Shown here in pieces: positions 59,302-64,000 of a stretch of DNA of 64,000 nucleotides. The notes beneath the pieces are model-generated. The model was not told where the DNA came from and did not search any database. It worked only from the letters and a program-made list of their open reading frames with translations. Position numbers and translations under genes: made by a program. Numbering within the stretch: the first letter of the stretch is position 1; every line of letters starts with the position of its first letter. Source of the stretch: Hyphococcus sp. (GTDB lineage: Bacteria; Pseudomonadota; Alphaproteobacteria; Caulobacterales; Parvularculaceae); the NCBI GenBank assembly GCA_021776335.1, contig JAJFGB010000001.1:365431-429430 (forward strand). Reading direction: 5' to 3'.

Positions 59302-59377
59302 AGGGGTGTAGCTCAGTTGGTAGAGCATCGGTCTCCAAAACCGAGGGTCGCGGGTTCGAGTCCCTCCGCCCCTGCCA
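59302..59377 (+). tRNA. tRNA-Trp (anticodon CCA)
   Basis: 76 bases with all arms intact: acceptor AGGGGTG pairs with CGCCCCT (one T-G wobble); the anticodon stem TCGGT/ACCGA encloses CTCCAAA with anticodon CCA at 59335-59337; the T arm contains GGTTCGAGTCC; and the CCA end is encoded (59375-59377). Its 3' part from 59333 on is the left copy of a 47-base exact repeat and so the integration target of the downstream islet. The mature tRNA is regenerated intact by the insertion. Confidence 0.97.
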
Positions 59378-59379
59378 GG
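59333..59379 (+). repeat. attL-like copy of 47-base direct repeat (3' half of tRNA-Trp)
   Basis: Runs from the first base of the anticodon loop through the CCA end plus two bases (GG). Identical to 62331-62377, with different bases just outside on both sides (T before, C after here; G before, T after there). This is the classic crossover footprint of site-specific integration into a tRNA. Confidence 0.93.
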
Positions 59380-59674
59380 CTAGAGTACTGTGATGGCACC
59401 TACAGCCGACCCAGTTTTCCAATTCAAATCCACCAACCCAAAACATTACGGCGAACACTAGGGAAAATCGCAGTCACTGACCTTGAATATACTGAGGGTA
59501 GAACTTATATTCATGCTTACACATAGGCTCCACTTTATTTGCTCCTTCCACAGGGGTGCAAAAATTTGGGGGGAGCCTGAGATTTGGCGCTGTGGACGGC
59601 AATCTCGATGTCTTCGAAAGAAGAGGTCGAGATGCTGCGTTGAAATCGCAAATCGGCCTCGGAAAGGGGTCGAT
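59380..59674. other. Left end of islet, no gene recognised
   Basis: From the left att site to the small ORF at 59675 there is no gene I can support. The open frame that extends through it has no ribosome site and no familiar pattern. An integrase remnant is not recognisable. Confidence 0.4.
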
Positions 59675-59866
59675 ATGATCTTTCTGGAAATCCTGCAAGC
59701 TTTGGGTGCGATCGTTGTTATTTCAGGTGCAGCGGTTCCTGCTGTACGCGCGTTCAATAGGCGTTACCGGCTAAGGTCGCCGTTTGAGCGACGGCAGTCG
59801 GGCACGTGTGCAACACATACGCAAGTCGAGAATCGGGCGACCAAATCCGAGCGCTCACCACGCTGA
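59675..59866 (+). CDS. Putative 63-residue membrane protein in islet
   Basis: The ATG at 59675 has an AAAGGGG ribosome site. The translation starts MIFLEILQALGAIVVISGAA, one membrane helix, followed by an Arg-rich cytoplasmic tail (RAFNRRYRLRSPFERRQSG). The frame is open upstream to 59483 without a better start. It could be a real islet gene or an accident of a decayed region. Confidence 0.4.
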   Translation: MIFLEILQALGAIVVISGAAVPAVRAFNRRYRLRSPFERRQSGTCATHTQVENRATKSERSPR

Positions 59867-60331
59867 TGGATTATGATCTCAAGGCGACGCATGCTAGGTA
59901 TTACTGCTCTGTTCTGTTTAAGGTGTCTGCAGAACCGGCGGTAGGGGGAGATGGCCAGCTTTCCATCCGCATTTAGAATTGATGTAGATCTGTTTTTTGT
60001 GGCGGTTATCGGTTCCTGTACGCGTGTTCATCACATTATCACGGGCCTGAAGTATTGATTTCTATTCGCTGTACTCACACCTCAGCTCACAAACAACAAC
60101 GCCTCCATCGGATAGACGCTACCCGCGACGCTGATGCCCGTAATGATGACAACCAAAAAGTTTCTGAATAGGAGGTGATTGGCGGCGCTCCGTTTCTTCG
60201 GTGAGCCCGATCTGCGTGAAGCGGTCAGCCATGATAACCATCGTCGGGTCTCACGTTGCATCAGAACAGTTTGTAGACACAGACCGTATAGGCCAGAATA
60301 TCCGGGAGAACTTACTACTGGAGAGAGAGCC
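59867..60331. other. 465-base non-coding stretch before the HEPN gene
   Basis: I see no gene here. The frame of the HEPN protein stays open back to 60179 but the product before its ATG shows no conserved pattern. The region should hold the promoter of the HEPN operon; no convincing -35/-10 pair stands out. Confidence 0.4.
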
Positions 60332-61312
60332 ATGAGCTTCTGTTTTCGTGTGAAAGCCCAATTCAAAACAGTGCTGAAGCTTTCTGAAGAACTGGAGTTT
60401 GTCAAACTTCCTGGCATGTCCGCGATCGAAATAAGACACGAGAAAGCTAACAAGATTTCCTGTGTGCAGGATACAGATACGCATTGCCCTGATCGGGAAT
60501 ACCCGCGTGTGACTGGTGAGACATATACGTTTATTTGTCGTAATTTTGAGTCGAAAGACGATGCACAAACCGCCGGTTCTCAATTTTATGACGCGCTTAA
60601 CCTGTGCGGCGCTGTAAACAGTCTCGGAATCGACTTCGCTACTGGCAAGCCGACCGGTAGCTTTAGCAACATCGCAAGAAAGGCCATTGAAAAGGAAATC
60701 GGCTGTGAATTGATGTCTGATCAATATGGTTTGATGGTATATGAAGAGGGAAAGATCAAGATTGTTGGTATGAGTGTGCGTGGATACACGAGTGTAAGAA
60801 TTTCACCATTCGAAGATCATTTGACCAAATCACTTGCCGAAATTCAATTTTTGAATGCACGCCATAAAAACTGCACTAATCTTATCAATGCTGCTGCTTA
60901 TTCTTTGCGCAGTGAGGCTCAGCTAATCTTGTACGTCTCGGCCGTTGAGGCACTTTGCGAAGACAAAAGGGTCGGCAAAGAGTATGAAAACATAATTGGC
61001 AAGCTTGTCGACTACGTCGACAAAATGAAAGGTCAAGGCAGCGATGGTGCTCCTGCCGACGCTTGGGAATCCGTTGAACGCGTTTTATTTTGGGCGCGGA
61101 AAACATCAATTAGACAATCATACTTGCACCTAATTCGATCAAGGCTTGATAACGATAGGGCAAAGCGATTCGACGAACTATATCGCTTGAGAAGCGAATA
61201 TCTTCACGTCGGGATTCGGGGGGATGAGATGGCGCAATCTGCAGGGGAAGCAAGGATAATTGCAGTTGATTTACTGAAAGCAGATTTAGCGGCGGCAAAA
61301 AATGAGCGCTAG
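60332..61312 (+). CDS. HEPN-domain protein (ApeA-like C-terminus), candidate antiphage RNase
   Basis: The ATG at 60332 follows GGAGAGAG; the product is 326 residues. The N-terminal 160 residues form a mixed alpha/beta domain (FKTVLKLSEELEFVKLPG, FICRNFESKDDAQTAGSQFYDALNL) that I do not recognise. The C-terminal about 160 residues look like the ApeA-type HEPN family: helices around LILYVSAVEALCEDKR, then FDELYRLRSEYLHVGIRG carrying the HEPN RNase signature R-x4-H (R287-H292). HEPN domains of this class cleave RNA, often tRNA, in abortive antiphage systems. The role here is inferred from this motif and the islet context. A single-stranded 47-base gap separates it from the next gene, suggesting one operon. 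Confidence 0.7.
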   Translation: MSFCFRVKAQFKTVLKLSEELEFVKLPGMSAIEIRHEKANKISCVQDTDTHCPDREYPRVTGETYTFICRNFESKDDAQTAGSQFYDALNLCGAVNSLGIDFATGKPTGSFSNIARKAIEKEIGCELMSDQYGLMVYEEGKIKIVGMSVRGYTSVRISPFEDHLTKSLAEIQFLNARHKNCTNLINAAAYSLRSEAQLILYVSAVEALCEDKRVGKEYENIIGKLVDYVDKMKGQGSDGAPADAWESVERVLFWARKTSIRQSYLHLIRSRLDNDRAKRFDELYRLRSEYLHVGIRGDEMAQSAGEARIIAVDLLKADLAAAKNER

Positions 61313-61359
61313 TGATTGTTGAAATTTGAGTGAGTAGCGTGAATTGAGGGAGCAAAGCT

Positions 61360-62181
61360 ATGAAAAACCAAGGGCTAATCATTCCGGTTCCAATGGTGAT
61401 AGGCAGAGGCGGCAACACATCAATTCCTGATCAAGATGATGTTCTCAAACAAACCATAATTAAGGGAATGCTTTTTTGGGATGAAATCCAAGTCCCATCA
61501 ACCTCCGCCATTTATGTGGGGATTGAGGACGAAGCTCTATTGCTTGACGCCGGAATTATTTCGAGGCCGATTCTGTCCACACCGGGTTCGAGGGAGATTC
61601 CAAACGTCCATTTCGAATATCTAGAGTTCTTAAGATCAAAAGAGTCTGAATTGTGGAGTATGGATAACACATTAGAGTTCCCAGTAGCTCCGGACTGCGT
61701 AAGCGATGAGCATCGAGCGGTATTGATCAATCTTTATGATGCCCTTCCAATACCGTCGATTAATGTTTCGTATGACGACCTGTTGGCCCTTAAGAGAAAG
61801 CGATATGACGAGCTGTTGGCCTTAAGAAATTGCCTCAATGATTGCTATCAAAGAGTTCTGTCTGCTGGCGATGGTGAAATGCAGTTCGATGCTGAACGCC
61901 ATAGGCTGGTAGCAGCAATTGAGGACTACACAAAGTCACTGAAGGAATTGTCTTTTCCGACGATTATATCGAGCATCAGGGCTGACTTTGTGAGTGCTGC
62001 GGCCACAGCTGCGATTACCTATTCCGCTTCATTTGGAAATGTGTCTGCGTCGCTTTTGGCCGCAGGCGTGGCCGGGATTAAACTTACGGTGGAAACAGAA
62101 GATTTGAGATTTAGCAGTGGCGATGAAAAGCACCCATTTCAGTATGTCTCAAGATACGGTAGAGAGCTTAAATGGACCTAG
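61360..62181 (+). CDS. Unrecognised protein paired with the HEPN gene
   Basis: The ATG at 61360 (preceded by GGGAG at somewhat long spacing) opens 273 residues. It begins with a hydrophobic strand and loop (LIIPVPMVIGRGG), followed by IIKGMLFWDEIQVPSTSAIYVG and EALLLDAGIISRPIL, a layout seen in a set of uncharacterised proteins of genomic islands. A charged helical middle section (DLLALKRKRYDELLALRNCL) leads to a C-terminal Ala/Ser-rich hydrophobic segment (VSAAATAAITYSAS, SASLLAAGVAG) that might contact the membrane. It is transcribed after the HEPN gene and lies wholly inside the att repeats. It could be a sensor, an inhibitor or a second effector. Confidence 0.6.
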   Translation: MKNQGLIIPVPMVIGRGGNTSIPDQDDVLKQTIIKGMLFWDEIQVPSTSAIYVGIEDEALLLDAGIISRPILSTPGSREIPNVHFEYLEFLRSKESELWSMDNTLEFPVAPDCVSDEHRAVLINLYDALPIPSINVSYDDLLALKRKRYDELLALRNCLNDCYQRVLSAGDGEMQFDAERHRLVAAIEDYTKSLKELSFPTIISSIRADFVSAAATAAITYSASFGNVSASLLAAGVAGIKLTVETEDLRFSSGDEKHPFQYVSRYGRELKWT

Positions 62182-62513
62182 CGCCGAAGATGCTACCCGA
62201 GCAAAAAGCTCATTCGTGCAATTTTGCTGGAAAAATGAATATGACTGGATGACAACAAAATCCTGTTTATGCCATGATTAAAGGGGCTAAATGCGATTAG
62301 GCGAGATTGGACTTAACCGAACACGCAGAGCTCCAAAACCGAGGGTCGCGGGTTCGAGTCCCTCCGCCCCTGCCAGGTCCAATTATCTGTTTCCGGAAAA
62401 CATCGACAATGTTTAGCGGCGTGGTGAGGTTGCCACCTAGTTGGGCCTCATAGGCTACTTGTTTTCTACTTGATCAAGGGTGCGCTAAGCGCAGTAGAGG
62501 AGGGAAGCGACAA
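62182..62513. other. 332-base gap holding the right att repeat
   Basis: No gene is seen. The notable content is the 47-base tRNA-Trp repeat at 62331-62377. The tRNA 5' half is missing there, so no second functional tRNA exists. The rest is AT-rich and may hold the promoter of the gene at 62514, which has a strong GAGGAGGGA ribosome site. Confidence 0.6.
62331..62377 (+). repeat. attR-like copy of 47-base tRNA-Trp repeat
   Basis: Exact copy of 59333-59379, in the same orientation, lacking the 5' part of the tRNA. It marks the right end of the 3-kb islet, or an internal junction if a second element lies to its right. Confidence 0.93.
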
Positions 62514-63011
62514 ATGGAATCGGAAATAGCTGGAGCTTGGGGGGTTTTTGTTGGCGCCATTATTACTCTCGGTGGCACAATCTTTGTGGCCGAGCGTTAT
62601 ACTTCCCACAAAAAACAACAAATCAGAGATGATCGGTATCTCGACGGGTGTGAGCGATTACTAACACGCGTTAACGACTCAATAGATCGAATAATCGCGG
62701 CGTCTTTCTACGTCGGTTCGTACAGTTTGAATCCGAATGCTCCTTTTGACAGTATGATTGCAGATATTAGATTCGTTGAGATCGGTGCGTTGCAAGGAAT
62801 ATACGCTCGCGCGTCAAAAAACTCCTTCGACGCGCTGTCAAATTGTTATCGAGAGTGGATAGTTGTTCTACGAACGGTTCAAACTGCAAACAGCGGAGAT
62901 TTAAGTGCGGCAAAAACTGCTTACAAATCGAAAACTCGCGATCTTTTGGCGAAGATAAGAGAATTCTCTAATGAGATAGTCACATCCGTTAACAATCGTG
63001 GCCTTGTTTGA
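62514..63011 (+). CDS. Membrane-anchored protein of unknown function
   Basis: The ATG at 62514 follows a near-consensus GAGGAGGGA site. The 165-residue product has a single N-terminal membrane helix (AWGVFVGAIITLGGTIFVAERY), then a Lys/Arg-rich boundary (TSHKKQQIRDDR) and a helical soluble domain. Short membrane-tethered proteins with this layout are frequent in defence and mobile islands. I do not recognise a family. It is immediately outside the islet's right repeat. Confidence 0.6.
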   Translation: MESEIAGAWGVFVGAIITLGGTIFVAERYTSHKKQQIRDDRYLDGCERLLTRVNDSIDRIIAASFYVGSYSLNPNAPFDSMIADIRFVEIGALQGIYARASKNSFDALSNCYREWIVVLRTVQTANSGDLSAAKTAYKSKTRDLLAKIREFSNEIVTSVNNRGLV

Positions 63012-63053
63012 TAGCGCCTTATGCGGTTCCGCCCGAGTTCGCCCAAGGCGCCG

Positions 63054-63392
63054 CTATTTGCCCACCGCCGCCTTCCCGGTGTTTCGCCGAGCCACAGCCA
63101 AGGCGAGAATGTCAGCCTTGATGCCGCCGAACCACATGAGTTCCCGGCAATCGGAAAAGGAGATGTTGCTGTCGATACGGAGCGCTTCGCTTTCAAAGAC
63201 CGCAAGTTTAGCCTGCAGGGCCCATGGGGACGTCGCCGGCGTACTCAAAACCGCGTCGCGCGCTTGATCCAGTTCGTGATATAGACGATCTGTTTCCGCC
63301 GCGCGGGTTTTTTCTGCGCCGTCCAGTTCGGCGCAGCGCCCTTGCGCGATTTTGAAGGTTTCGAGGGCGTCGAAGAAGCTGTCCGTGGCCAT
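63054..63392 (-). CDS. Small coiled-coil protein, divergent from XRE regulator
   Basis: The ATG at 63392 has AAAGGA upstream. The 112-residue product is a helical protein with charged coiled-coil content (ALETFKIAQGRCAELDGAEKTRAAETDRLYHELDQA) followed by a more hydrophobic end (LMWFGGIKADILALAVARR). Proteins of this kind occur in alphaproteobacterial mobile regions without an assigned function. It is divergent from the XRE gene across a perfect palindrome, so its expression is probably controlled by that regulator. Confidence 0.6.
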   Translation of the reverse strand: MATDSFFDALETFKIAQGRCAELDGAEKTRAAETDRLYHELDQARDAVLSTPATSPWALQAKLAVFESEALRIDSNISFSDCRELMWFGGIKADILALAVARRNTGKAAVGK

Positions 63393-63413
63393 CTTGGATT
63401 CCTTTGCCGGTTG

Positions 63414-63440
63414 CTAATTGATACGAAAAGTATCAATTAG
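63414..63440. promoter_or_regulatory. Perfect 11-base-arm palindromic operator
   Basis: CTAATTGATAC and GTATCAATTAG are exact inverted arms around GAAAA. The site lies between the divergent starts at 63392 and 63475, 21 and 34 bases from them. An XRE-type repressor binding here would control both genes, most likely its own as well. Confidence 0.75.
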
Positions 63441-63474
63441 AGTGCACATGTGACAATGGCACAACCGGGTAATT

Positions 63475-63699
63475 ATGACAAGCGCACAAGTGAGGGCAGC
63501 GCGCGGGCTGCTGAATTGGACCGTCCGGAACCTCGCTGATAAGGCGGGCATTCACAGAAACACGGTCACCAATATTGAAACCGAACGTTACAACGGTGAC
63601 GTCGAGACATTAAAAGCAATACGCAAAGCGCTCGAAAGGGCCGGCGTGCAATTTATTACCGAAAAAGGCGTAGGCGTTGGCGTAAAATTGAAACAATAA
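63475..63699 (+). CDS. Small XRE-family helix-turn-helix regulator
   Basis: The ATG at 63475 gives 74 residues. It is a single Cro/CI-type HTH: QVRAARGLLNWTVRNLADKAGIHRNTVTNIE, with the recognition helix in the last part, followed by LKAIRKALERAGVQFI. Such proteins are common repressors of mobile elements and addiction modules. It sits next to the perfect palindrome at 63414-63440. The downstream open frame at 63719 may be in the same transcription unit. Confidence 0.85.
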   Translation: MTSAQVRAARGLLNWTVRNLADKAGIHRNTVTNIETERYNGDVETLKAIRKALERAGVQFITEKGVGVGVKLKQ

Positions 63700-63718
63700 A
63701 CGCGAACGGGTGCACGAA

Positions 63719-64000
63719 ATGCGAATTGTTGTTCAAGCTGAAACCGAAAATGATGCGTTCACCGTTCGGGAAAACTCGAGCAAATCAGAAACTGTGTTTC
63801 GCAAAGATACAACAAGTGGCCGTCATGTGAGCAATGGGCAGAGATTCTTCCGGCCTGGTTCGTGAAATATTTTGGGCCTGAGTTAAATCAACAGGAAGCG
63901 GAAGACTATGTAGAGCGCTGGCGTAAGCTTACGCCGCAAGAACGGCAAGAAGCGGAAGAGATTCGAGTGTGGTCTTTGTGTGACTGGATATACTGGTTTG
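63719..64000 (+). pseudogene. Partial and apparently frameshifted gene at window edge
   Basis: An ATG at 63719 opens a frame (MRIVVQAETENDAFTVRENS) that ends at 63865. In another frame, open without a start codon from 63754 to the window edge, the translation looks protein-like: CEQWAEILPAWFVKYFGP followed by ERWRKLTPQERQEAEEIRVW, a pattern I associate with small uncharacterised proteins of alphaproteobacterial mobile regions. The two frames overlap, suggesting a frameshift or a start codon not recognised here. The right end is outside the window, so intactness cannot be judged. Confidence 0.4.

Follow-up and report, generated by a model that had tools for sequence, protein, structure and literature searches.

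Near the end of the 64,000-nucleotide window analyzed here, the whole stretch of DNA under study (Hyphococcus sp., assembly GCA_021776335.1, contig JAJFGB010000001.1, positions 365,431 to 429,430), a 3.0-kb islet with two accessory genes lies between an intact tRNA-Trp gene and a displaced copy of the 3' part of this gene. The islet is most probably what remains, stranded and without an integrase, of an element inserted into tRNA-Trp by a tyrosine recombinase, and resembles the cis-mobilizable elements (CIMEs) of other bacteria. The window belongs to contig C1 of a genome of 4,178,611 bases (4.18 Mb), and the reading was extended on this contig beyond the window end. All positions are given in window numbering.

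The islet is delimited by an exact 47-bp repeat, present in the forward orientation at positions 59333–59379 and 62331–62377, with different bases flanking the two copies on both sides. A whole-genome pattern search allowing up to three mismatches located the repeat at these two places only, and the reversed control pattern was not found. The first copy, the tRNA-side attachment (att) site, coincides with the 3' part of the sole tRNA in the window, an intact tRNA-Trp ending in CCA (59302–59377, forward strand; ARAGORN, and 66.3 bits with the Rfam tRNA model), the integration target whose 3' part forms one island boundary. The repeat starts at nucleotide 32 of the tRNA (position 59333), the first base of the seven-nucleotide anticodon loop (59333–59339, with the anticodon at position 34 of the tRNA), and contains the loop and everything 3' of it through CCA, followed by GG. 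The distal att copy is identical to tRNA-Trp in its 3' part (45/45 bases), compared to only 8/31 matching bases in the 5' part, and is not called as a tRNA. The preliminary description of this DNA had already reported such a repeat with differing flanks, extending from the anticodon loop through CCA plus GG, with a second copy devoid of the tRNA 5' half; the pattern search and the tRNA numbering agree with it in each of these respects. Its statement that the interior is AT-richer than the neighboring lpx genes also holds, the G+C content being 45–46% in the two islet genes and 58% in the lpx genes. The latter, an lpxI-like gene and lpxB, are located upstream of tRNA-Trp; the lpxI match is below its curated cut-off (319.9 versus 400 bits).

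To place the islet in context, we compared 28 members of the genus, i.e. the window's genome and 27 congeners (numbered G001 onwards), several of which are incomplete. The best named match to NusG is from a Marinicaulis assembly (96% identity), placing the window's genome in or next to Marinicaulis, family Parvularculaceae. At least 11 orphan copies of the 3' part of tRNA-Trp are present in 10 of the 28, the window's own included, with at most five candidates scored per genome. This count leaves out complete second tRNA-Trp genes (G001, G009 and G024) and very short local duplications (G003 and, outside the genus, G225 and G061). All 11 orphan copies contain the whole anticodon loop: seven start exactly at its first base, the remaining four extend 2–7 nt further 5', and none starts inside or 3' of the loop. 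Over the 45-nt 3' part, 35–45 positions match the tRNA of the window without gaps. A tyrosine recombinase gene is located on the 5' (island) side of five of the 11 copies, 30–161 bp away (G016, G017, G018, G020 and G023); the one in G017 scores below the cut-off with PF00589 (22.3 versus 27.1 bits) and above it with the arm-binding domain (33.9 versus 27 bits). The integrases of G016 and G020 are 57% identical; identity to this pair is only 22–24% for those of G017 and G018, and that of G023 matches none of them. As the integrases beside the copies are so divergent, several different recombinases appear to use the tRNA-Trp site.

Three irregular tRNA-Trp loci were noted in the congeners. A degenerate tRNA-Trp-like copy (nt 4–46) with a hairpin-like insert precedes a good tRNA-Trp by ~150 bp in G017 (L043:16957-16999). 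The last 27 nt of tRNA-Trp, together with ~20 nt of flank, are repeated ~90 bp downstream in G003 (L053:16785-16811), and short second matches are seen in G225 and G061. The lpxB-linked tRNA-Trp of G024 (L074:13087-13171) is 85 nt long, rather than 76, with an apparent short insertion after the anticodon stem; a second, complete tRNA-Trp is present on another contig of this genome.

The site is unoccupied in seven congeners (G004, G005, G008, G009, G017, G025 and G027). ORF591, an open reading frame (ORF) for a ~590-residue protein (591 aa; L003:6019-7794) without a Pfam match that separates tRNA-Trp from secE in several congeners, follows tRNA-Trp by 167–277 bp in six of these (in G005 only partially, at a contig end), and secE follows by 127 bp in G008, where distances are the gaps between BLAST matches. 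The view from the nusG side, which covers 26 loci, agrees on an unoccupied site for four of them (G009, G017, G025 and G027). In the window's genome, the distance from the tRNA to ORF591 is 8.2 kb, of which the islet accounts for 3.0 kb and a segment beyond the second repeat for 5.2 kb; both are extra relative to the seven congeners. The preliminary description had proposed to look for the empty site, with secE and nusG expected directly behind a single repeat copy. Unoccupied tRNA-Trp genes were indeed found, none of them empty for the islet alone; the expected position of secE/nusG proved incorrect, as these genes start only at ~69.5 kb, past the 5.2-kb segment and a functionally uncharacterized gene.

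Together with the 11 orphan copies and the integrases beside five of them, the unoccupied sites support the site-specific integration that had been proposed. Two observations that were named beforehand as speaking against it were not made: the interior is not conserved unchanged across the clade, with both islet genes (ORF1 and ORF2) unmatched in all 27 congeners (seven of them 83–88% complete), and no tRNA 5' half precedes any of the 11 orphan copies, the second copy of the islet included.

The islet region was also searched for recombination and transfer functions. Neither an integrase, a relaxase nor any other transfer gene is found among the Pfam, NCBIfam and PHROG matches of ORF1 and ORF2, and the ORF at 59483–59866 has no such match with Pfam or PHROGs; its match to a PHROG "tail assembly chaperone" (21.4 bits, E = 3.1e-4) was taken as chance. 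The genome contains five matches to PF00589, none of them on this contig, in agreement with the absence of a visible integrase noted in the preliminary description. Two of these genes, on contigs C6 and C11, we take to be XerC/XerD from their scores and lengths. Of the other three, which were examined, two adjoin tRNA genes (tRNA-Leu and tRNA-Lys, respectively), and no tRNA is present in the 13 kb fetched for the last one. Two of the three match the tRNA-Trp-linked integrases of the congeners at 20–32% identity, and the third matches none.

No 9-mer is shared between the 300 bp at either end of the islet, and thus no arm-type repeat common to both ends was detected. Promoter- and terminator-like sites are near the level of shuffled sequence (5 versus 3.8 and 3 versus 3.0, respectively). 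Rfam models detected only the tRNA over the islet region, apart from a sub-threshold tmRNA match at 62300–62375 (14.1 versus 47 bits, E = 0.016), which we ascribe to the tRNA 3' end.

These features suggest the following history. A tyrosine recombinase would have inserted an element into tRNA-Trp, exchanging strands within the anticodon loop. As the inserted DNA would have supplied its own tRNA 3' end, the tRNA would have remained intact, with the displaced 3' end as the far boundary. The part bearing the recombinase would then have been lost, leaving both att sites around the two accessory genes. Such a remnant is expected to be immobile alone, and could leave upon the arrival, next to it, of an element that encodes a matching tRNA-Trp integrase.

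The genus contains two further segments that are bounded by repeats and have no detected integrase. G024 contains a 2.1-kb islet (L054:9912-12128; also L142) with one large gene encoding a fused PARIS AriAB (PADLOC, E = 1.5e-87), flanked on one side by a second, complete tRNA-Trp whose 3' half is variant, and on the other by a tRNA-Trp 3' copy. In G018, a 5.5-kb segment lies directly behind an integrase-bearing unit; its genes, by our own reading, include transporter-like and amidohydrolase-like ones, and the four ORFs tested have no PADLOC match. The tRNA-Trp 5' half of G018 ends another contig, and the full array would be assembled across the two. Judged from its sequence, this arrangement would provide, in a relative, the tandem layout that permits cis-mobilization. 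The three segments (3.0, 2.1 and 5.5 kb) have no DNA similarity to each other, and ORF1 and ORF2 are unmatched in the other two.

ORF1 (60332–61312, forward strand; 326 aa) has no match to Pfam, NCBIfam, PADLOC or PHROG at E = 0.1. Homologs occur in four of the 398 genomes of the order, counting that of the window, and residues R287, S288 and H292 are invariant in the alignment of the four sequences, forming an R-x4-H motif. The best structural model has a mean predicted local distance difference test score (pLDDT) of 65.4 and a predicted template modeling score of 0.66 (the other four models have pLDDT values of 49–61), with a helical C-terminal half. In this model, R287–H292 are located at the end of a helix (residues 274–293) that is followed by another (299–325). 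In the available text of PMC3710099, the active HEPN motif R-x4-6-H terminates helix 3 and precedes helix 4. Since the invariant R287 and H292 occupy this position, we call ORF1 HEPN-like, and the predicted model suggests that it is probably a HEPN RNase. ORF1 has no match in plasmids, viral contigs or genome contigs, the last set possibly leaving out records near the window's genome. Three matches to solved structures (E = 0.29–0.65) were taken as chance, and none was obtained with a profile.

ORF2 (61360–62181, forward strand; 273 aa), which starts 47 bp after ORF1, is a member of DUF6236 (PF19749, residues 31–271, E = 1.8e-20, 73.8 bits versus a curated cut-off of 26.2), a family of unknown function. 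DUF6236 is present in six of 398 genomes of the order and in eight of 72,556 plasmid records, without relatives in viral contigs or solved structures; no paper naming it was obtained from the literature library searched. A match to a trehalose-synthesis enzyme (NCBIfam, 14.2 versus 1312 bits) was taken as chance, and the model of the DUF6236 protein, being of low confidence (mean pLDDT 56.5), was not used. The two genes do not constitute a conserved pair in this sample, as the window's genome alone among the 398 has both. The other matches of ORF1 and ORF2 are single genes with unrelated-looking neighbors, as judged by eye from mechanically called ORFs over 19–20 kb for ORF1 and ~3.5–3.8 kb for ORF2. 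With ORF1 as a likely HEPN RNase, the cargo of the islet probably guards the host.

The left flank of the islet (59380–60331) contains gene debris and no recognized intact gene. The debris includes a pseudogene fragment on the reverse strand (60087–60299), which matches the end of cydB together with the small gene that follows, and whose frame is broken and contains a premature stop. It is 74% identical to positions 64182–64405 behind the second repeat, in the same orientation; the closest sequence to the cydB fragment over 86 bp is from G012 (83%). Most simply, an earlier version of the islet would have carried cyd genes, the fragment being left from it or acquired by recombination with such a version. 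As a dead cydB fragment lies inside the islet, decay is likely.

The second extra segment starts in the window (62378–64000) and reaches ~67.5 kb. It begins with an ORF (62514–63011), an ORF on the reverse strand (63054–63392) and a lone XRE-type regulator (63475–63699), followed by a small ORF and, past the window end, complete cydB and cydA genes and a DUF1330 gene, after which come ORF591, secE and presumably nusG, the last label being our own reading. The cydAB genes most similar to these in the genus (G004, G009 and G012) are not accompanied, within the sequence retrieved, by any other gene tested from this region. Outside the window's genome, the matches of positions 62182–64000 in 62 family genomes are limited to 3' ends of tRNA-Trp and similar tRNA pieces.

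Several observations weigh against the islet being the remnant of an independent tRNA-Trp element. No integrase was found beside six of the 11 orphan copies; three of these six are on small contigs or at a contig end, so that this is weak either way. No integrase relic was detected by tblastn, using five recombinases over 59000–69000 (best E = 0.11) and eight over 59000–68000, so the former integrase of the islet is deduced from its relatives. Eight congeners (G002, G006, G007, G014, G015, G016, G021 and G023) have neither ORF591 nor secE in the stretch fetched after the tRNA, and the order tRNA–ORF591–secE is therefore not universal. The sequence after the second repeat is held by no relative in the 62 family genomes, and a site empty for the islet alone was consequently not seen. 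Lastly, the 5.2-kb segment has no recognizable outer repeat before ORF591 (the best alignment of the 47-mer, at ~67487–67516, scores no higher than 86 of 100 shuffles), and the G+C content of its first 0.6 kb is that of the islet (45%), so that the independence of the islet from the outer segment is not proven. This last point bears on a history compatible with the preferred one, in which the islet and the outer segment (8.2 kb, 59380 to ~67.5 kb) arrived together as a single composite island, within which the second repeat marks the limit of an earlier accretion event. All 8.2 kb are extra relative to the seven congeners, and the islet and the outer segment share a cydB 3' end as well as the low G+C content where they adjoin; however, an outer repeat as good as the best candidate is obtained from most shuffles, and the G+C content climbs to 58% in cyd. 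We consider such a composite entry possible, if somewhat doubtful.

A naturally integrase-less passenger with two att sites, spreading in trans or in cis through tRNA-Trp integrases that belong to other elements, would explain why three repeat-bounded segments without a detected integrase occur in the genus, two of which, the smallest, carry defense-like cargo (a fused PARIS AriAB in G024), and why tyrosine integrases adjoin tRNA-Trp copies in congeners. However, a recurrent class of this kind is unlikely: the three segments are mutually dissimilar, the four genes tested in G018 match no defense family, the search of the window's genome gave no tyrosine integrase at tRNA-Trp, and the islet contains the dead cydB fragment. 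A bolder version, in which tRNA-Trp of Marinicaulis hosts minimal integrase-less "defense islets" (2–3 kb, with two tRNA 3' ends enclosing one or two anti-phage genes) that are moved around by passing tRNA-Trp integrases, and in which ORF1 and DUF6236 form an undescribed HEPN-based defense pair, is put forward as speculation that we would expect to fail. A repeat created locally, by duplication or recombination of the 3' half of the tRNA and without any mobile element, has a precedent in short 3'-end duplications such as the one in G003 (27 nt plus flank, ~90 bp from the tRNA). Such an origin was already disfavored and is very improbable here, as the flanks beyond the 47 bp differ, the copies are separated by 3 kb of lower-G+C DNA with genes absent from the congeners, the edge takes in the whole anticodon loop in all 11 orphan copies, and integrases lie beside five of them.

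The preferred reading, a stranded remainder of a tRNA-Trp element, agrees with the features of a CIME as follows. Flanks corresponding to attL and attR are provided by the exact repeats, their nature being indicated by the loop boundary and the adjacent integrases of the orphan copies. Profile searches and tblastn with integrases detected no integrase, and the profiles no relaxase or transfer gene. Descent by decay from an integrative element (ICE, IME or similar) would account for the debris in 59380–60331, and no integrase relic was detected. The preliminary description had considered a small non-autonomous element or a cargo module of a tandem array. The fit to a CIME is in keeping with this, while a tandem in this genome is our inference, the segment behind the second repeat being without an outer repeat; decay is likelier than a purpose-built non-autonomous element.

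The islet represents a clear case of a tRNA-sited, integrase-less element that is likely missed by integrase-based island finders. With PARIS in G024 as a second example, small islets are suggested as a place to look for single defense genes. Direct testing is possible, as congeners carry several distinct integrases beside tRNA-Trp copies. Otherwise, the architecture of the islet is ordinary and well understood, and the element is of a known kind. Islander-type tRNA islands, as outlined in the accessible part of PMC4383910, share with it the regenerated tRNA, the displaced and correctly oriented 3' fragment and the anticodon-loop crossover. However, an autonomous island in this sense has its own integrase, and the Islander filter tests for an integrase gene (PMC4383910); as the islet has none, Islander is expected to pass it over. 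The Shewanella putrefaciens island CGI48 is similar in its composite structure and in the use of tRNA-Trp as a recurrent island site, but is 48 kb long and was excised on expression of integrase and excisionase, according to the sections available of PMC8978831. At the ssrA locus of Dehalococcoides, 15 islands without integration modules were described and suggested to be possibly cis-mobilizable (PMC3146451, as far as the portion at hand reports). These likewise are tandem islands bounded by repeats of the 3' end of an RNA gene, and differ in the ssrA target, a serine recombinase, 20-bp repeats and a reductive dehalogenase cargo (same portion of PMC3146451). The closest counterparts are the CIMEs of streptococci, for which sizes of 1.2–13 kb are given in the available text of PMC7563491, and whose formation is described in that of PMC5704250. 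In contrast to these, an integrase-bearing neighbor of the islet was not found in its genome, its target is tRNA-Trp and its host an alphaproteobacterium. The islet is likened to them by architecture, descent from a conjugative or mobilizable element not being part of the likeness. What it shares with the streptococcal CIMEs, as characterized in the available text of both sources, is att sites at both ends, the absence of recombination genes, a small cargo, a tandem with other elements (inferred for the islet) and a location at the 3' end of a conserved gene.

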